The notes beneath the pieces were generated by a model, which did no database searches, had not been told where the DNA came from, and was given only the letters and a program-made list of their open reading frames with translations. Positions 21,961 to 30,833 of a DNA stretch of 40,099 bases are shown in pieces. This DNA is from an uncultured Phycisphaera sp. (GTDB taxonomy: Bacteria > Planctomycetota > Phycisphaerae > Phycisphaerales > SM1A02), in contig CALFOM010000244.1 of NCBI GenBank assembly GCA_937919685.1, forward strand, positions 1 to 40,099, written 5' to 3'. Position numbers and translations under genes: made by a program. Each line of letters begins with the position of its first letter. The first letter of the stretch is position 1.

Positions 21961-22020
21961 ACACGGTGAACACGGTGAACACGATGAACACGATGAACAC
22001 GGTGAACACGATGAACACGA
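21958..22020. repeat. 9-bp minisatellite, seven units
   Basis: Seven uninterrupted units of TGAACACGR, with the last base G or A, run from the stop codon of the repeat-protein gene into the gap before the convergent gene. A degenerate unit (TCGACACGA) precedes them inside the coding end and TGAACCACC follows. Each unit begins with TGA in the frame of the upstream gene. Tandem arrays of this kind change copy number by slippage. Confidence 0.95.
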
Positions 22021-22073
22021 TGAACCACCGAGAACCACCGAATCGAGCCCGCCGCAGAATCGCGGCTTGATCT

Positions 22074-22880
22074 TCAGAGTTGTCGAAGCTCGTCGCGAAG
22101 AATCGCCGCGAGTTCGTAATTTTCTGACGCGAGCGCCCCCAGTAGCCGCTGCTCCAGATCGTGCCGTTGGCTCATTGGAAGTTGAAGCCGGAGCACATCA
22201 CGCATGCCCTCGAGCATCGGGATTTCCGGGGGTTCCGGGGCGCCGTCCGGATACGCCGCTCGGATGTCGTTGACGGCCGCATCGATGATGTCGCGGGCAA
22301 CACTGGTCTGGCGATTACCGATCGCGATCAGCGAGGCGGCTCGGGCACGAGTCGCCAGAACCTGCGGACGGAACTGTTCCAGAACAGTTCGATCATCGGC
22401 ATCGCACCCGCGATCTCGGCAGAGATCAAACATGCGAAGATTCCTAGAGGTGTCCTCGACGACGAGATCGAAGCACTCCAGCCCAAGCAACGCCACGTAT
22501 CGCTGATGCACCTGCACCGCTTCGGATCGAAGTTCCGCGGCGAGGGGTCCATCGATCTTGAACTCTGGTTCCTTCAACACCATGGCCTCGACCGAACTCA
22601 GTCGATCCTTACCACCGTCCGGCCGCCCCCTCAGCTCCATTTGGAGGATCCCGAGTTCCACTCGGATCTGAAGCAATCGACGATCGCCTTCGAGTTCGAT
22701 AATCCGAGCGACCAAACGATCCGGCTCGAAGGGCCACCTGTCCAAAGGTCCGGTCAAATCGTCGTTCACGGTCTCTCCATCGGGGTTCGATGCAAGTGCA
22801 AGGACGGTGAGGATCGTACCGGTCATCCACTCCGCGACGAGTCTTCCGCCTGGGAATAGCAGATCCAACGCGTTCCTCAT
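22074..22880 (-). CDS. UVR-motif protein of unknown function (268 aa)
   Basis: The C-terminal helix-turn-helix pair HDLEQRLLGALASENYELAAILRDELRQL (quoted by its key parts LLGALASENYELAA and ILRDEL) matches the UVR motif shared by UvrB, UvrC and McsA, which mediates protein-protein contacts. The rest is not recognised. It includes acidic and amphipathic helices and a Cys-bearing stretch (FDLCRDRGCDADD) but no zinc-finger pairs like those of McsA. The ATG at 22880 is used; a TTG one codon upstream is possible. No clear Shine-Dalgarno is seen, as the upstream bases are a T-rich run on this strand. A later start at residue 19 or 20 (MTGTILTV) would remove a weakly hydrophobic N-terminus. It converges on the ExbBD operon and diverges from the sigma factor gene. 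Confidence 0.75.
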   Translation of the reverse strand: MRNALDLLFPGGRLVAEWMTGTILTVLALASNPDGETVNDDLTGPLDRWPFEPDRLVARIIELEGDRRLLQIRVELGILQMELRGRPDGGKDRLSSVEAMVLKEPEFKIDGPLAAELRSEAVQVHQRYVALLGLECFDLVVEDTSRNLRMFDLCRDRGCDADDRTVLEQFRPQVLATRARAASLIAIGNRQTSVARDIIDAAVNDIRAAYPDGAPEPPEIPMLEGMRDVLRLQLPMSQRHDLEQRLLGALASENYELAAILRDELRQL

Positions 22881-23025
22881 CAAAAAAAATTGACCACGTC
22901 AAGAATGGTGATCGAACTGGCCGAAACCCTCATTAGGGAGAAGAAACACCGAACTTCGGCAACCTGAAGTCGGTACCAAAAGAGGAACTCACCACCGACT
23001 TGGCATCAACTCACGAAGTTAACCC

Positions 23026-23053
23026 TTGTTTCGAGATCCGTCACTCCTACAAT
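23026..23053 (+). promoter_or_regulatory. candidate sigma-70 promoter for the sigma factor gene
   Basis: TTGTTT at 23026-23031 and TACAAT at 23048-23053 are separated by 16 bases. The -10 matches the consensus at five of six positions; the -35 is weaker. It would give a leader of about 100 bases before the ATG at 23163. The leader holds a perfect AGGAGG at 23114-23119 that is too far from the annotated ATG to serve it. Confidence 0.5.
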
Positions 23054-23162
23054 CGGAGGTGCTGGTCTGGGAGGGCCGGCTGATTCAAGGGGTACTCCCC
23101 TCTTGGATTCGTGAGGAGGTAACGAGCATCGAAGTGAGCTCGGAAAAAGAGGTAAAGGGATC

Positions 23163-24089
23163 ATGGCTCGAAAAGGTGTCCATACAGAGCTGCAGTTGTA
23201 CCTGCGCGAAATCAACGGACTCCAACTCCTGACCGCACAACAGGAGAAGGATCTCGGGTGGTTAATCGTCAACGACAGCTGTCCTGAGGCCAAGGATCGG
23301 ATGATCAAGTCCAATCTTCGTCTCGTCATCGCCATCAGCAAGAACTATGCGAACCGCGGTCTACCGCTGCTCGATCTCATCGAAGAAGGCAACATCGGCC
23401 TGATTCGTGCGGTCGAGGGCTTCGATCCCGCACAGGGCGCCAGGTTCAGCACGTATGCCTCCTGGTGGATCAAGCAATCCATCAAGCGGATGCTGGTGAA
23501 TGCAACCCAACCAATCCATATCCCGGCCTATATGGTCGACCTCATCGGAAAGTGGCGATATGCCTCGGCCCGACTTGAGGAGGAAATGGGCCGACCGCCA
23601 AGCAACGCGGAGATGAGTGAAGCGTTGCAGATCCCGGACCGCAAGGTTCAGGCGATTCGGCGAGCCTTGAAGGCGGTCTCGACCGGGAATCAGGCTCCAA
23701 CCGGAATCGACGGCGAAGCCGCTGATTTCGCGGAGATCTGCCCGGACTCGCGCAATGGCCAGCCCGAAACGGCGAGCGAACATCGCGAGGACTACGCGAT
23801 GGTGCTCAAACTTCTCGATTCGATCGACGAACGGGATGCCCGGGTAATCCGGCTCCGATTCGGACTCGAGGGCCAGCCTCCACTCACCCTGAAGGAGATC
23901 GGCCAAGAAGTCGGGCTTACGCGAGAGCGGGTCCGTCAGATCGAGATGGAAGCACTGCGTCGTCTTCAGTCGCAGATGATGGACGACCGGCCCGGCCGCT
24001 TCGTTCAGAATCGGGACGAAACGGGCCTTCGACCTAGCACTCGGCGTCGTTGGACAAAGTCGACCGAGAAGCAGCCGGAACGATCTTGA
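23163..24089 (+). CDS. sigma-70 family RNA polymerase sigma factor (group 1/2 type)
   Basis: Directs RNA polymerase to promoters. The 308 residues contain region 1.2 ([23 protein letters not shown]), region 2 with the RpoD-type core binding and -10 elements ([43 protein letters not shown]; cited by key parts), region 3 ([14 protein letters not shown]) and region 4 ([21 protein letters not shown]). Region 1.1 is absent, which argues against the primary RpoD and for an alternative group 2 factor. After region 4 there are about 35 mostly basic residues ([15 protein letters not shown]). The ATG has GAGG 10 bases and AGGG 3 bases upstream. Single-gene transcription unit ending in a strong terminator. 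Confidence 0.93.
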
Positions 24090-24142
24090 TTCGCAAGATC
24101 TCCGCCAGAATCACCGAGCGGTGAGAGGATAAACCAGAATCA

Positions 24143-24180
24143 ACGCGGGCCCGGTCTTCGACCGGGCCCGCGTCGTTTTT
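24143..24180 (+). terminator. intrinsic terminator after the sigma factor gene
   Basis: A perfect 14-bp stem (24143-24156 with 24160-24173) encloses a TTC loop and is followed by TTTTT at 24176-24180. It lies between the convergent sigma factor and gcvT genes. The run of T is on the plus strand only, so it serves the sigma gene; the hairpin may also slow transcription from the other side. Confidence 0.95.
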
Positions 24181-24253
24181 CCATCTTGTGAAAGCAGGAG
24201 AACGCGCCTCGAACGATGAGCTGCGTCGGCTCGTCTTCCCGCGTCAGATTCGA

Positions 24254-25384
24254 TCAGGGCCGCTTGTAGAGCGGTAATTTCACGATCTCGGCGTCAGTTC
24301 CGCCGCCAAGGTCGATTCGAACGGTGGTCCCGACCTCGGCCATCTCCGCGGGCACGTAGGCCATGCCGATCGGATGTCCGAGCGTCGGACTCGGGCAGCC
24401 ACTGGTGACCGTTCCCACCACGCGATCGCCATCGAAGACCGACATTCCCTGGCGAGGACTTCGGCGACCATCCAGTTTCAGACCGACCAGTTTTCGCTCG
24501 GGTCCGTTCGCGGCGATCCGCTGCAACGCGTCCTGGCCGATAAACCGTCCTTCTTGTTCGTCCGACTCGCCCTTGTCCAATTTGACGGCGAATCCCAGTC
24601 CGGCGGAAATCGGATCGGTCTGCTCGTCGAGTTCATGACCATAGAGCGGCATCCCCGCCTCCATGCGGAGGCTGTCACGGGCACCCAGACCCGCCGGTCG
24701 GACGACGCCACCTTCAACCCCAATATCCTTGAGCAGCATTCCGAGCGCCTGACGAGCGAATTTGGCACCGAGAATCACTTCGACGCCGTCCTCGCCGGTG
24801 TATCCGGTCCTGCTGACGATGATCTTCATGACCAGGACGTTCTTCACCGTGAAGCGATAACGCTTGAGCGTCGGCACCTCCCGGGAGACCTTCCCGAGGA
24901 GCTCCATGACTTTGGGCCCCTGGATCGCACACATACAGGTTGATTCCGTCTCATCCACCATCTTGAAGACGAGGCTCTCGTCCGCCTTGACCCGGTTGAA
25001 GTGCGTGGTGATCTTCTCTCGATTCGCACCGTTGCAGACGACCATGTAATCGTCATCCGAAAAGCAGTAGACGAGGACGTCATCGAGGCAGCCGCCTGTC
25101 TCATTGCAGATCAGGCCGTAGCGACACTGCCCCTCCTGCATTCCCCGGACCAGCCGCGTACAGACGCGATCTAGGAACCTCCGGGCATGTCGGCCAGAAA
25201 TGCGAAGTCGGCCCATGTGCGAGACATCGAAAATACTGCCGCTGGAACGCGTCCAGAGGTGCTCTTCTCCGATTGACCCGTAGTGAAGCGGGAGTTCCCA
25301 GCCCGCGTATTCGACGATCTTCGCCTTGTGCTCGACATGGAAGTTATGGAGCGGAGAACGCGTCAGAGTGGTGGTTTCTGGCAT
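24254..25384 (-). CDS. gcvT: glycine cleavage system T protein (aminomethyltransferase)
   Basis: Transfers the methylene group from the aminomethyl-lipoyl H protein to tetrahydrofolate and releases ammonia. The 376 residues fit the family (about 365). Visible signatures are HYGSIGEEHLWTRSSGSIFD (N-terminal folate domain, quoted in part), FDVSHMGR, GGCLDDVLVY, SRTGYTGEDG, ARDSLRMEAGMPLYGHEL and VGTVTSGCPSPTLGHPIG. The open frame continues 40 codons upstream. MPETTTLTRSPLHNFH at 25384 is chosen because it is where GcvT homology begins. GcvH and GcvP are not in the window, so the gene is separated from the rest of the system. A GcvT-like YgfZ protein is less likely given the full-length folate motifs. 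Confidence 0.93.
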   Translation of the reverse strand: MPETTTLTRSPLHNFHVEHKAKIVEYAGWELPLHYGSIGEEHLWTRSSGSIFDVSHMGRLRISGRHARRFLDRVCTRLVRGMQEGQCRYGLICNETGGCLDDVLVYCFSDDDYMVVCNGANREKITTHFNRVKADESLVFKMVDETESTCMCAIQGPKVMELLGKVSREVPTLKRYRFTVKNVLVMKIIVSRTGYTGEDGVEVILGAKFARQALGMLLKDIGVEGGVVRPAGLGARDSLRMEAGMPLYGHELDEQTDPISAGLGFAVKLDKGESDEQEGRFIGQDALQRIAANGPERKLVGLKLDGRRSPRQGMSVFDGDRVVGTVTSGCPSPTLGHPIGMAYVPAEMAEVGTTVRIDLGGGTDAEIVKLPLYKRP

Positions 25385-25574
25385 TGCCGCACGGTAGCGG
25401 TCCCCCGGGTCCTTCGCCACCACGGGTGCTCTCTTCCATCCCTTCCGATCATGCGGCCTGTGACGATCGCTCCATGCCTCGGAGCTGCAAATTTGACCCC
25501 CCAATCTTGCATCCCGTCAAATCGAATTGGACCTTCTCCGTGTGGGATGTGAATCTCAGAAAGTCCACCAATTC

Positions 25575-25584
25575 GAGGAGAAGG
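25575..25584 (+). promoter_or_regulatory. strong ribosome binding site of the 34-residue gene
   Basis: GAGGAGAAGG is almost fully complementary to the 16S rRNA 3' end and lies at good spacing from the ATG at 25589 (8 bases from AGGAG). It is among the best Shine-Dalgarno sequences in the window and is what makes the very short downstream frame credible. Confidence 0.8.
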
Positions 25585-25588
25585 CCTG

Positions 25589-25693
25589 ATGTCCAACAAG
25601 AGCACCACCACCGCACGTGGCGATCGAGATGTCCTGTTCCGCCTGGCCATGACCGCCGCGGGAATCGGACTCCTGCTCTCGGTTCTGATCTGA
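25589..25693 (+). CDS. small single-pass membrane peptide (34 aa)
   Basis: The frame runs ATG to TGA for 34 codons. The peptide has a polar, basic N-terminus (MSNKSTTTARGDRDVLFR) and one hydrophobic helix (LAMTAAGIGLLLSVLI) up to the C-terminus. The layout suits a small tail-anchored inner-membrane peptide, probably with the N-terminus inside. Support comes from the strong ribosome binding site, mostly G or C third positions, and a place of its own in the gap between gcvT and bamA. No family is recognised. It may modulate a membrane complex, as many such small proteins do, but nothing in the sequence identifies a partner. Confidence 0.65.
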   Translation: MSNKSTTTARGDRDVLFRLAMTAAGIGLLLSVLI

Positions 25694-25821
25694 GCCATTT
25701 TCGAGCCGCCGATGCCCTCTTAATCGGGCGGGCGGCCGGATGAACGATTCGCCCCGACGGAACGTGCTTCCCACGATCCGGCGGGGCGTTCGCATGCCCT
25801 CCGAGGTAAACTCCGAGGTTC

Positions 25822-28359
25822 ATGCCGACCGGCTCATTGATCTTCGACGATGGATCGCACCTCAAGTCCGAGCAGCTGCGCGCCAAGAGGTCCCGAACCG
25901 GATTCCACGATCACGACGGCCTCCGGGCCAGATATCGAAGATTTCCGGGGCGATTGACCCTTCTGGCGTGGCTGGGCGTCCTGAGGATCCTTCTCGGCTC
26001 ACTGATCGTGGCCGGGGTGAACCCGACGTACGCGACGCCTGTCATTCCCGCTCAGGACATTGACGACGAGACCTTCGCGGATCGACCGATCTCCGAGGTC
26101 GAATTCAAGGGCCTTGAGCGAGTCGAGATGCGTCTCGTGCAGAACAATATTCGCACCGCCTCAGGCCAGCCGTTCGATGCGCAGTCGCTCCGAGACGATG
26201 TCGCCACCCTGTACCGGCTCGGCCAGTTCCAGACGGTGACCGCGGATGCCGTCCTGCAAGCCGACGGAAGCGTCAAGGTCGTCTACCGCGTCACCGAACA
26301 ATCCATCATCCGAGATGTGCAGACCGTCGGGAACACGCTGGTCTCGGACCAGGAACTTCGAGCGCAGATCCCGCTCTACGCGGGCGGTCCACGCGACGAC
26401 TTCCTCGTCGAACAATCTCTGCTCCGGATCAAGGACCTCTACCGCGGAAAAGGCCATTACCTCGCCGAGGTCCGAGTGGACGACTCCCGACTCACCGATG
26501 CGGGCATCCTCATCTTCGTGATCGTCGAGGGGCCCCGGGTCCGGATCAAGGAGATCGAATTCGTCGGGAACCGCAACATCCCCACGAACATCCTGGGCTC
26601 ACAGATCTCGACCAAGCCGGCCATTCTCTTCTTCCGAAAGGGGGAGTTGGATCCGAATCGGTTGATCGATGATGCCGCGACGCTTGACCGGTTCTACAAG
26701 GATCGTGGGTGGATCGACGTCCGAGTGGACAGTCGAGTCCTGCTTGGGCCTGACTCCAAGGAAGCGAAGGTCGTATTCGTGATCGATGAGGGCCGGCAGT
26801 ACCGACTCCGTCGAATCGACATCGCCTCCGTCGGTGGCAACGATTCCCCCCTCGACGTCTTCAGCAACGAGCAGCTTCTCGCGCTGGCCGCGTTTCGTCC
26901 GGGAGATCCCTACGAACGACCCAATGTGGACAAAACGGTCGAGAGGATTCGAGACGCGTATCGTCAGATGGGATTCGTCGATGCGAGAGTCACCGCTCGG
27001 AACCTCCGGGTCGGGGAGCAGCCCGAAGTCGACATGATCATTCAGATCGTGGAAGGACCGTCCTTCACCGCCGGTCTCATCATGATCCAAGGCAATTTTC
27101 TGACCAAGGACAAGGTCATCCGGCGCCTGGTCAAGGTCCGCCCGGGTCGCCCCCTTGACGGAACCCTCACGGAACGGGCGAAGGTCTCGATCGATCGATC
27201 GCAGCTCTTCAATGATGTGCGGGTCTCGATCCAGCAGCCCACCAACGACTCGCCACGAGTCCGTGACATCATCATTGAGGTGAAGGAACGAAACACGGGT
27301 TCCTTCAACTTCGGTGCTGGCCTCGCGTCCGACAGCGGAATCTTCGGCGAATTCTCTTTTCGCCAGACGAACTTCGACGTCGCAGATTTCCCGCTCAGCG
27401 TCGAGGAGCTGATCAGCGGCCGCGCATTCCGCGGCGCAGGCCAGAGTTTCAACATCACGATCGCCCCGGGTACCGAAGTCAGCATGTTTTCGCTGTCGAT
27501 CACCGAACCGCATCTCTTCGAGAGCAATATCTCCGGGCAGTTCGACAGTTTCTACCGAAATCGCATCTACAACCAGTACACCGAGGAACGACTCTCCGCG
27601 GGTGGGAGCGTTGGCCGGCGACTGGGCGACGTCTGGGTTGGAAACATCTCTGCGAACGTAGAACGGGTGGAACTGACGGACTTCGATTCAACCACGCCAA
27701 TCGAGGTGTATGACGACCGAGGGCCGGATGTTTTCGCACGGATCAGCGCCTCGCTTCGACGCACCACGGTCGACAATCCCTTCCGCCCGGGCAAGGGTTC
27801 GGCCATGAACATCGGCGTCGCGAAGGCAATGCCGATCAGTGGAAACGTGGATTACTGGAGCGTCAACGCCGAGCTGGCAAGTTTTCTCACCCTCTATGAG
27901 GACTTCCTCGGACGCAAGCATGTGCTCAAACTTCAGACCGAGGTTGGCTGGATCTTCCAGGGTGAAGCCCCCACCTTCGAGAAGTACTATCTCGGTGGCC
28001 GCACTTTCCGCGGATTCGGATTCCGTACGGTGAGCCCGAAATCCGACACCACCGTCGGGCAGCCGCAAGGAACCGGCGACTATGAACCCATCGGCGGCAG
28101 TTGGCTCTTCTTTGCGGGCGCCCAATATGAAGTCCCGCTCTTTGGCGAAGGTCTCGCCGGGGTGATGTTCGTCGACTCGGGAACGGTGACGAATACCCCG
28201 GGATTCGACGACTACCGGGTCTCGGTCGGCATTGGACTCCGCCTCTACCTTCCGATACTGGGCCCCGCTCCCCTCGCCTTCGACTTCGGGTTCCCGATGC
28301 TTAAGCAGGAGAACGATGAAACCCAGGTCTTCAGTTTCAGCGCCGAACTGCCCTTCTGA
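25822..28359 (+). CDS. bamA: BamA / Omp85 outer-membrane protein assembly factor
   Basis: Core of the machine that folds and inserts beta-barrel proteins into the outer membrane. The 845 residues begin with a long basic n-region (about 1-43) and a hydrophobic signal (LLGSLIVAGVNPTYATPV). Five POTRA domains follow to about residue 490, with typical pieces such as VEFKGLERVEMRLVQNNI, VQTVGNTLVSDQELR, IEFVGNRNIPTNIL and IMIQGNFLTKDKVIRR. A 16-strand barrel carries the loop 6 motif as RTFRGFGFR (about 723-731). The C-terminus FSFSAELPF ends in Phe, the usual barrel signal. The long N-terminus is odd; GAGG sits only 3 bases from this ATG, and no later ATG precedes the signal. It begins the bamA-skp-skp-lpxD-lpxC/fabZ run. 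Confidence 0.96.
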   Translation: MPTGSLIFDDGSHLKSEQLRAKRSRTGFHDHDGLRARYRRFPGRLTLLAWLGVLRILLGSLIVAGVNPTYATPVIPAQDIDDETFADRPISEVEFKGLERVEMRLVQNNIRTASGQPFDAQSLRDDVATLYRLGQFQTVTADAVLQADGSVKVVYRVTEQSIIRDVQTVGNTLVSDQELRAQIPLYAGGPRDDFLVEQSLLRIKDLYRGKGHYLAEVRVDDSRLTDAGILIFVIVEGPRVRIKEIEFVGNRNIPTNILGSQISTKPAILFFRKGELDPNRLIDDAATLDRFYKDRGWIDVRVDSRVLLGPDSKEAKVVFVIDEGRQYRLRRIDIASVGGNDSPLDVFSNEQLLALAAFRPGDPYERPNVDKTVERIRDAYRQMGFVDARVTARNLRVGEQPEVDMIIQIVEGPSFTAGLIMIQGNFLTKDKVIRRLVKVRPGRPLDGTLTERAKVSIDRSQLFNDVRVSIQQPTNDSPRVRDIIIEVKERNTGSFNFGAGLASDSGIFGEFSFRQTNFDVADFPLSVEELISGRAFRGAGQSFNITIAPGTEVSMFSLSITEPHLFESNISGQFDSFYRNRIYNQYTEERLSAGGSVGRRLGDVWVGNISANVERVELTDFDSTTPIEVYDDRGPDVFARISASLRRTTVDNPFRPGKGSAMNIGVAKAMPISGNVDYWSVNAELASFLTLYEDFLGRKHVLKLQTEVGWIFQGEAPTFEKYYLGGRTFRGFGFRTVSPKSDTTVGQPQGTGDYEPIGGSWLFFAGAQYEVPLFGEGLAGVMFVDSGTVTNTPGFDDYRVSVGIGLRLYLPILGPAPLAFDFGFPMLKQENDETQVFSFSAELPF

Positions 28360-28467
28360 GAGGCTCGTCTCCTCCTGATCACCTGATCCCCCCTTCGGCG
28401 GCTCGTCTTCGTACAATTCCCAACATTCACCTCAAGGTCGCATCACCTCCATCAGGAGCCTCGTCGC

Positions 28468-29121
28468 ATGTCCGTGGATCGCTCGCCCTCGACGCATCGT
28501 CTCTCTCGTCTGGCCGCCCCCACCGCCCTCGCGGTGAGCCTGGTCCTTCTCGTGCACACCATGTCGGTCAACGCATCGCGTCCCACGACCGTGCAGGCCG
28601 ACCCGACCTCGGTCGCGGTGGTGGAAGTCTCTCGGGTTCTTGACCAGATCGACGAGAAATCGGAATGGGAGATTCGGATCGATGCGCTCAAGTCCGCCAT
28701 CCAGCAGGAAGGCGTAAGCCGCCAGCAGGCGATGGAACGACGACTCGCAGAGAGCGAGAGCGCCACATCGCCTGAACAGCGACAGGATATTCGTGACGAG
28801 GTCGCCCTCATGCAACTTCGACTCGAACAATGGGCGAACATGAAGGCCGTCGAAGTAGATCGCGAGCAGTCGCTCATGTGGCGGAGCATCTACCGGAATC
28901 TTCGCCGGGAAGCCGAGCGAGTCGCCGAGGCCGAAGGCTACGCACTGGTCCTTGTCGATGACTCGGGGGGAGAAATCCGTACCCAGTCAGGGACTCAGGT
29001 TCCCTTGCAGACCCAGGTGCTCCAGCAGATCACCAGTCGCCGGATTCTCTTCGCCGCGAACATAACCGACATCTCGGATCAGATCATCGTCCGCATGAAC
29101 AACGCCGTCGTGGCGCCCTGA
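28468..29121 (+). CDS. Skp/OmpH-family periplasmic chaperone, first copy
   Basis: Binds unfolded outer-membrane proteins in the periplasm and hands them to BamA. The 217 residues comprise a signal peptide (about 15-37, LAAPTALAVSLVLLVHTMSV), a short beta stretch (VAVVEVSRVLDQI), a long coiled-coil hairpin rich in Glu, Gln and Arg (about 60-145) and a closing beta/helix part (GYALVLVDD, RRILFAANITDISDQIIVRM) that matches the OmpH C-terminal pattern. AGGAG lies 9 bases before the ATG. The skp position right after bamA is the norm. Two copies in tandem differ greatly in sequence. Confidence 0.85.
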   Translation: MSVDRSPSTHRLSRLAAPTALAVSLVLLVHTMSVNASRPTTVQADPTSVAVVEVSRVLDQIDEKSEWEIRIDALKSAIQQEGVSRQQAMERRLAESESATSPEQRQDIRDEVALMQLRLEQWANMKAVEVDREQSLMWRSIYRNLRREAERVAEAEGYALVLVDDSGGEIRTQSGTQVPLQTQVLQQITSRRILFAANITDISDQIIVRMNNAVVAP

Positions 29122-29160: not shown

Positions 29161-29769
29161 ATGAACCGCTCGACCATCCGACTCACTCTCGCCGGAATCG
29201 TCACCTTCATGGTGCTCGCCGGCGCCTCGCGACTGATGTTCGCACCACCGACCGCGCCCCCACTGGTCGCGACCATCGATCTTGAAAAACTCTTCAACGG
29301 CCTCGATGTACAGAAGACCGAGGGCGCCCGAGTTGACGCGTTCGCTGTCAAGTACGACAAGCAACTCGATGTGCTCCGTGGCCGAATTGAAAATCTTCAG
29401 GCCGAGTTGGAGAACTTCGAGCAGGGAGGCGAAGCGTGGCTCAAGACGAGCCGGGACGCCGAGGCCGCCATCAGCGAGTACCAAGCAATCGAGCAATTCG
29501 CACGACTCAAGGTCGAAGCGGAACGGGCGAAATCGATGCGGAACGTCTACGAACGCATCAAGTCAGAGATCGAGGACTTTGCCAAGGCACAGACACCGCC
29601 CCTCGACCTCGTCCTCATCGACGACACCATTCCGGTACTGGAACCTTCGACCGCGGAAGCGATGCAGAAGCAGATTTCGGCGCGTCGACTGATCTACGCC
29701 TCCAGCGCCTTTGACATCACGGACATCCTGCTTGCACGCATGAACGCCACGGGTGGAAACGGCGGGTGA
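29161..29769 (+). CDS. Skp/OmpH-family periplasmic chaperone, second copy
   Basis: 202 residues with a signal or anchor helix (about 7-27, LTLAGIVTFMVLAGASRLMF), a beta strand (LVATIDLEKLFNGLD), a coiled-coil hairpin (about 55-140, including LQAELENFEQGGEAW) and a C-terminal part (LDLVLIDDTIPVL, then RRLIYASSAFDITDILLARM). The end resembles that of the first copy (both have RR(I/L), DI(S/T)D and RM). It starts 39 bases after the first copy and its stop overlaps the lpxD start by GTGA. Both copies may trimerise separately or together. Confidence 0.87.
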   Translation: MNRSTIRLTLAGIVTFMVLAGASRLMFAPPTAPPLVATIDLEKLFNGLDVQKTEGARVDAFAVKYDKQLDVLRGRIENLQAELENFEQGGEAWLKTSRDAEAAISEYQAIEQFARLKVEAERAKSMRNVYERIKSEIEDFAKAQTPPLDLVLIDDTIPVLEPSTAEAMQKQISARRLIYASSAFDITDILLARMNATGGNGG

Positions 29770-30833
29770 GCGAATTCGGGCTCGGAGTCGACACCATCCG
29801 CACTGCGGACGGAATCGCCCTTCTGGTCGATGGAGAGGTCGAGGGTGACGGCGGCGTCGTCGCCCGAGGTATCGAAGCGATCGATCACGCTGGCGAAGGT
29901 GATCTCACCTTCATCGGTGATGCTCGGCACGCCAAGCACTGGGCGACCTCCAGCGCGAGCATCGCAATGGCGACACGAGGCATCGATCTCGGCGACTGGT
30001 CGACCAACGGGCGTGCGGTGATCCGTGTCGCCAATGCCGACCAGGCGATGATTCTGGTGCTCGAATTCGTGGAAGCTGCGACCGCGGACCTCCTGGAGCG
30101 TCCGACCGCCGGGATCAACGCGGGGGCGTGTGTCGATCCGACCGCCACCATCGAAGAAGACGCCGTGATTGGACCATTCGCGGTGATCGGCGCAAGATGC
30201 CGGATCGGATCGGGGACCATCGTGGAATCGGGCGTCCGGATCTATTCGGACGCGATCATTGGAGACAACGTTCATCTGCATTCCGGAGTCATCATCCGGG
30301 AACGATGCGTGGTCGGTGATCGATCCATCCTTCACGCCGGAGTGGTGATCGGCAGCGACGGCTTCGGATACCGGCCCGATCCCGGAGGCGTCGGCCTCCG
30401 AAAGATCCCCCACATCGGGCACGTGAAGATCGGCGCAGACGTCGAGATCGGGGCGAACTCCTGCATCGATCGAGGCAAGTTTGGAGCGACGATCATCGGC
30501 CAGGGCTCGAAGATCGACAATCTGTGCCAGATCGGGCACAACGTCAAGATCGGAAAATACGTCGTGATCAGCGGGTTGACGGGAATTGCCGGGAGTACAA
30601 CCGTCGGAGACGGTACGCTCATCGGTGGCGGCGTCGGACTCAGCGACCATATTCGAATCGGTGTCGGCTGCCAGATCGCGGGACGATCTGGTGTGATGAA
30701 CGACATCCCCGATGGTGAGGCATGGGCGGGGATGCCCGCCAAGGACGCCCGCGACGCCATGAAGGAATGGGCCGTCATCCGTAGACTGCCCGAGTGGTCC
30801 AAACGACTCCGAGGACTGCTCGAACCTCGCTGA
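29766..30833 (+). CDS. lpxD: UDP-3-O-acylglucosamine N-acyltransferase
   Basis: Third step of lipid A synthesis: transfers a hydroxyacyl chain from acyl-ACP to the 2-amino group of UDP-3-O-acyl-glucosamine. The 355 residues comprise an N-terminal uridine-binding domain (GIEAIDHAGEGDLTFIGDA) and a left-handed beta helix of hexapeptide repeats from about residue 118 (ATIEEDAVIGPFAVIGARC), with the family signature VVIGSDGFGY and the catalytic-His segment QIGHNVKIG. The C-terminal helix is present (KDARDAMKEWAVIRRLPEW). Start GTG overlaps the stop of the second skp gene. Confidence 0.96.
   Translation: MSEFGLGVDTIRTADGIALLVDGEVEGDGGVVARGIEAIDHAGEGDLTFIGDARHAKHWATSSASIAMATRGIDLGDWSTNGRAVIRVANADQAMILVLEFVEAATADLLERPTAGINAGACVDPTATIEEDAVIGPFAVIGARCRIGSGTIVESGVRIYSDAIIGDNVHLHSGVIIRERCVVGDRSILHAGVVIGSDGFGYRPDPGGVGLRKIPHIGHVKIGADVEIGANSCIDRGKFGATIIGQGSKIDNLCQIGHNVKIGKYVVISGLTGIAGSTTVGDGTLIGGGVGLSDHIRIGVGCQIAGRSGVMNDIPDGEAWAGMPAKDARDAMKEWAVIRRLPEWSKRLRGLLEPR

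Follow-up and report, generated by a model that had tools for sequence, protein, structure and literature searches.

A gene for a probable 34-residue tail-anchored membrane protein divergent from gcvT in a family of marine Phycisphaerales

AcrZ, CydX, KdpF and SgrT are small single-helix proteins that serve as regulators or subunits of membrane complexes. Genes of this size are usually absent from annotation, above all in uncultivated lineages. DUF883 proteins of the ElaB/YqjD type have about 100 residues and a long soluble part, and type I toxins form another class of small, hydrophobic, single-helix peptides. Insertion of the 27-residue protein YohP into the membrane is post-translational and involves recognition by the signal recognition particle (PMC7549839, in part). 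Proteins of the ElaB/YqjD type have a cytoplasmic polar part and a C-terminal helix and lack a signal sequence (PMC6389858, in part). Arrest peptides linked to protein localisation show a patchy distribution (PMC10987492, in part).

Here we describe a small gene from a family of uncultivated marine planctomycete bacteria within Phycisphaerales. It lies in a 40,099-nucleotide stretch of DNA from an uncultured Phycisphaera sp., referred to as the window. The features of the locus are as follows.

24254..25384, minus strand: gcvT, the divergent neighbour and the locus's constant partner across genera (family search, comparison of genera)
25391..25396, minus strand: TACCGT, a -10-like TAnnnT box 6 nt upstream of the ATG of divergent gcvT, invariant in 8/8 same-genus sequences
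25575..25584, plus strand: ribosome binding site GAGGAGAAGG, a purine-rich site kept in 8/8 same-genus genomes
25589..25693, plus strand: 34-codon gene for a predicted tail-anchored membrane microprotein, stop included (translation, conservation, alignment)
25640..25690, plus strand: codons 18-34, with the boundary residue Arg18, the uncharged hydrophobic helix 19-34, the invariant Gly27 and the small residue Ser31 (alignment and structure prediction)
25750..25788, plus strand: strong hairpin downstream of the small gene, without a T-run, a possible transcript end (folding; double changes in the inner pairs preserve the pairing)
25807..25812, plus strand: TAAACT, a -10-like TAnnnT box 9 nt before the bamA ATG (read by eye from alignments)
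25822..28359, plus strand: bamA, the downstream neighbour within this genus (family search)

The open reading frame begins with an ATG at 25589-25591, ends with a TGA whose last base is 25693, and translates to MSNKSTTTARGDRDVLFRLAMTAAGIGLLLSVLI (34 aa). Within the ribosome binding site, GAGGAG ends 8 nt 5' of the ATG. Both strands of the 40 kb window were scanned for an ATG with a purine-rich site within 17 nt, opening a frame of 28-60 residues whose hydrophobic segment ends no more than 3 residues from the C-terminus. This frame was the sole match, and 0.02 matches are expected per window, the mean of 100 dinucleotide-shuffled windows. The encoded peptide has one hydrophobic helix of membrane-spanning length at its C-terminus and no signal peptide, as judged by sequence and prediction, and AlphaFold2 places a helix at residues 7-33 with a mean pLDDT of 81. 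The preliminary description of this DNA had reported the binding site and 34-residue frame, a position between gcvT and bamA, and a polar stub followed by a single hydrophobic C-terminal helix, all of which are confirmed here. From sequence evidence, the status of this frame as a real gene is well supported.

A protein search covered 61 genomes, the window's own (G000) and 60 relatives. The peptide was matched in 7/7 genomes of the window's genus (g1) at E-values of 5e-12 to 9e-7. Records of this genus carry the names Phycisphaera sp. TMED9 and Planctomycetes bacterium TMED75, the others being Phycisphaerales MAGs and one MAG labelled Planctomycetaceae. The remaining 53 genomes gave nothing or marginal matches. 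Each of the seven copies has divergent gcvT on one side and bamA on the other, and keeps the strand, start, purine-rich binding site and stop. Among the eight same-genus genomes, the binding site reads GAGGAGGAAG or CAGGAGGAAG in the second subclade and GAGGAGAAGG in the others. The peptide alignment has 16 invariant residues, and length differences consist of whole codons only, confined to the Thr-rich stub. The dN/dS ratio is below 1 in 28/28 same-genus pairs (range 0.10-0.86; dS is noisy on 34 codons), and variable sites number 17, 8 and 22 at codon positions 1, 2 and 3. The helix codons average a pairwise identity of 0.85, compared with 0.63 and 0.70 for the gaps on either side. These patterns point to protein-level selection on the reading frame, indicating a small protein under purifying selection. 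The conservation check proposed with the preliminary description thus found the frame kept in 7/7 same-genus genomes and in three orthologs from a neighbouring genus, g50, bearing out its reading of a small membrane-protein gene, which is conserved among related Planctomycetota.

A profile built from the eight same-genus peptides was searched against 181 genomes of the family, 12 of which matched at E <= 1e-5: the eight of the window's genus, genome G179 and three of genus g50. The g50 orthologs (E 1e-8 to 4e-6) occupy the same locus position as in the window's genus. G179 carries two gcvT-peptide loci, one near the window's genus (L117, G179:C21) and one like its own genus (L144, G179:C105), and this unlike pair suggests that C21 is a contaminating contig from the window's genus in that assembly. 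At E <= 2.4e-8, an order-wide profile search of 400 genomes returned 22 places, spread over 21 genomes and all within the family; nearly all of these had been built into the profile, the extra one being the C21 copy of G179, which is of the window's-genus type. Outside the family, nothing in the 400 genomes rose above noise, and four order-level outgroup loci have no such ORF adjoining gcvT. Noise set in from about 1e-3 and included candidates from G009 (0.0076) and G029 (0.02), both correctly placed.

The regions upstream of gcvT were also scanned for small ORFs of this kind. The first, stricter scan, whose limit the window's own peptide misses, found 10 forward copies in 66 regions, all ten outside the window's genus, with 0 in reverse and 0/6600 in shuffles. 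After the thresholds were relaxed, 24 copies were found on the strand leading away from gcvT, with 0/66 in reverse and 2/6600 in shuffles. The ATG lies 181-216 nt from the gcvT end of the region in 21 of the 24, the exceptions being G026, G029 and G109, which are among the scan copies. In a held-out profile test, only 15/24 peptides scored above every one of 200 shuffled versions of themselves; these were all of g7, g14 and g20, two of three in g29, two of three in g50, two of eight in g1, and G029. The G109 peptide (g25) scored no better than its own shuffles. Homology beyond g1 and g50 therefore appears to be carried by a short hydrophobic helix plus position.

Weak candidates left out as profile members are those of G109 and G029, together with G009, a protein of 68 aa with a C-terminal tail, and G027, G028 and G031, which have tails after the helix. 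The G009 candidate is backed by its top score and by its branching as sister to the gene-bearing clade in a tree. In this tree of GcvT and BamA, G009 branches deepest in the clade that unites it with g1, g50, g7 and g14, and g29 (G035) falls in a neighbouring clade; local support is 0.79 for the group without G009's sister split and 0.95 at the next node. No small ORF of this kind was found in 42/66 gcvT-adjacent regions, in several of which the gap is too short, so that the gene has there been lost, moved, changed beyond recognition or was never present. Across much of the family, the small gene may be dispensable or beyond recognition.

The gene that follows the peptide varies between genera. 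It is bamA, on the same strand, in g1, g50, g7 and g14. In g29 (G035, G202 and G203; 3/3 examined) it is a same-strand, dihydrouridine-synthase-like gene, read from its translation as a tRNA-dihydrouridine synthase. In G009 and G026 a convergent lpxD follows, recognised as an LpxD-type acyltransferase by its hexapeptide repeats, and the weaker g25 candidates likewise have an LpxD-type acyltransferase gene oriented toward the small ORF. Among these regions, which were selected by gcvT, gcvT appears to be the sole constant neighbour, and profile searches of the 181 family and 400 order genomes gave no copy away from gcvT at a convincing E-value. The preliminary description suggested that the peptide may be a small regulator of a membrane complex; no membrane-protein gene is a constant neighbour of the peptide loci across genera. 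Any link to bamA that the preliminary description implied is not supported by this variable set of downstream genes, on the grounds of which a bamA-specific regulator is also rejected.

Several family members have an LpxD-type acyltransferase gene in the interval from gcvT to bamA, encoded on the opposite strand to bamA, at loci L088, L089, L092, L093, L094, L096, L100, L101, L102, L104 and L107. In the window, an LpxD-type gene (29766-30833) instead comes after bamA, and two OmpH/Skp-like genes are also present. On the other side of the locus, a 269-codon ORF at 22074-22883 on the minus strand has a weak match only to a UvrB/UvrC motif, and an ORF with a similar C-terminus adjoins gcvT in G014 (L092, start).

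The small gene is most likely transcribed separately from bamA, as the intergenic sequence suggests. The RNA between the two (25694-25821) has a folding z of -3.55. Its hairpin at 25750-25788 is conserved within the genus, with three inner pairs switched on both sides between subclades, perhaps through few events. At the same place, different and unrelated strong hairpins occur in the three g50 genomes. Counterparts of the TAAACT box are TATTCT in the second subclade and TATCCT in g50, about 9-10 nt before the bamA start, suggesting that bamA has its own near-leaderless promoter at this box. A standard promoter scan found no promoter in 25380-25900. The hairpin, the -10-like boxes and the variable downstream gene agree with the earlier statement that the small gene stands alone, in the sense of a unit of its own. 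The bamA and gcvT mRNAs may be leaderless or nearly so in this lineage, whereas a classical binding site precedes the small ORF. Rfam gave no match at E <= 1 in 22000-29000, and the idea that a glycine riboswitch or another known RNA family occupies the interval from gcvT to the peptide is rejected.

Residues of the peptide follow a simple pattern across an alignment of 22 copies. Gly27 is found in 22/22 and Arg18 in 20/22, residue 31 is always Gly, Ala or Ser (22/22), and no copy has a charged residue after position 18. Under the positive-inside rule for membrane protein topology, charges that extend only up to Arg18 would place the stub in the cytoplasm and the end of the helix at the periplasmic face. 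A chain of 34 residues is about the length of the ribosome tunnel. It would be too short to emerge before translation ends and would therefore be inserted after release. A Gly-xxx-small face usually signals that helices pack closely; GxxxG/S faces also occur commonly in helices without a special role.

The explanation we favour, with somewhat better than even confidence, is that the gene is transcribed separately and encodes a 34-residue tail-anchored inner-membrane protein that packs against a partner helix through Gly27-xxx-Ser31. The conserved start, binding site and stop would yield a protein with a charged N-terminal stub and an uncharged helix running to the last residue. The stub would stay cytoplasmic and the helix would cross the inner membrane, ending flush with its periplasmic side, with insertion following release from the ribosome as reported for YohP. 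The Gly27-xxx-Ser31 face might then pack on a transmembrane helix, either in a partner or in a second copy of the peptide, and such packing might stabilise or tune the partner complex, as with small helical subunits elsewhere. By analogy, the most likely role is that of an accessory helix of a membrane complex. The partner is probably not BamA, because BamA resides in the outer membrane, out of reach of a peptide that has no periplasmic tail. A more specific picture is speculative and improbable: an ultra-short tail-anchored family, old within one Phycisphaerales family, that forms an auxiliary subunit of membrane insertion, lipid or respiratory machinery, is expressed from the gcvT divergent region and is tied to one-carbon/glycine metabolism.

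Other explanations account for parts of these observations. Translation of the small ORF could control translation or transcription of bamA in cis, the ORF then encoding a leader or arrest peptide that would act in the manner of Sec/YidC-related arrest peptides, which govern genes downstream of them. Such a role would suit a frame that lies directly upstream of bamA on the same strand in g1, g50, g7 and g14, the structured RNA between the two in g1, and the patchy occurrence of arrest peptides tied to protein-localisation machinery. We consider it improbable, as the dihydrouridine-synthase-like gene of g29 and the convergent lpxD of G009 and G026 leave bamA no constant target and the ORF no constant cis linkage to a controlled gene, the -10-like box before the bamA start lies beyond the hairpin, and the conserved part is a membrane helix without an invariant motif at its extreme C-terminus. 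It is extremely improbable that the frame is open by chance within a conserved DNA or RNA element between two important genes. The region does contain conserved promoter-like boxes and a hairpin, but identity within the genus is higher in the helix codons than in either flanking gap, second codon positions are spared from change, and other genera likewise have the helix, the start and the binding site.

Among protein-level alternatives, a membrane-damaging small peptide of the type I toxin kind, silenced by an antisense RNA, would fit the size and the single hydrophobic helix (PMC8309996, in part). Against it stand the one convincing copy in G000 at a fixed chromosomal place, the lack of any match in 50,697 phage records or in viral contigs, and an Rfam search for antisense RNA that gave nothing, making this reading highly improbable. 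On the same negative phage and viral searches, a phage or viral origin is rejected. The peptide could also be a miniature of a known tail-anchored or one-helix family, of the DUF883 ElaB/YqjD type or SecE, reduced to its anchor. Weak Pfam scores of one member each hint at this: DUF883_C in G035 (E 0.17, 12.0 bits vs a cut-off of 27; one of 22 members, none in the other 21) and SecE in G013 (E 0.029, 14.7 bits vs a cut-off of 22.7). Both fall well below the curated cut-offs, the window peptide itself matches nothing, and a separate SecE exceeds the cut-off in 8/9 genomes tested, G000 among them (G000:C97). Such a derivation is accordingly improbable, with DUF883 membership unsupported in Pfam and the role of a SecE substitute rejected.

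As a gene for a probable small inner-membrane protein, this locus can be recognised by its divergent position about 200 nt from the gcvT start, its strong ribosome binding site and its Arg...Gly-xxx-small pattern. These marks allow its inclusion in gene models and its tracing in relatives through proteomics. The locus also shows that a neighbour seen in a single genome, here bamA, can mislead on function, and that comparison across genera may reveal another fixed partner, here gcvT.

The peptide appears to be a new family within a known kind, the small single-helix membrane protein. No Pfam, NCBIfam, Rfam or PDB-sequence family matches the window peptide, and a search of open-licence literature found no description of the gene. 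Sec/YidC-related arrest peptides resemble it in that it, too, is a short ORF, which in some genera precedes an envelope-biogenesis gene, but here the downstream gene is inconstant, an invariant C-terminal motif is absent and bamA has a separate promoter-like box. With SecE it shares a short cytoplasmic segment followed by a single helix. Like the DUF883 proteins ElaB and YqjD, it combines a polar cytoplasmic part with a C-terminal helix that has a glycine pattern (Pfam names a glycine zipper for DUF883_C) and has no signal sequence, whereas its soluble part is only about 17 residues. Unlike AcrZ, CydX, KdpF, SgrT and YohP, it has no Pfam or NCBIfam match and adjoins neither a transporter nor an oxidase, yet it shares with them a length below 50 residues, one membrane helix and a gene easily overlooked in annotation.
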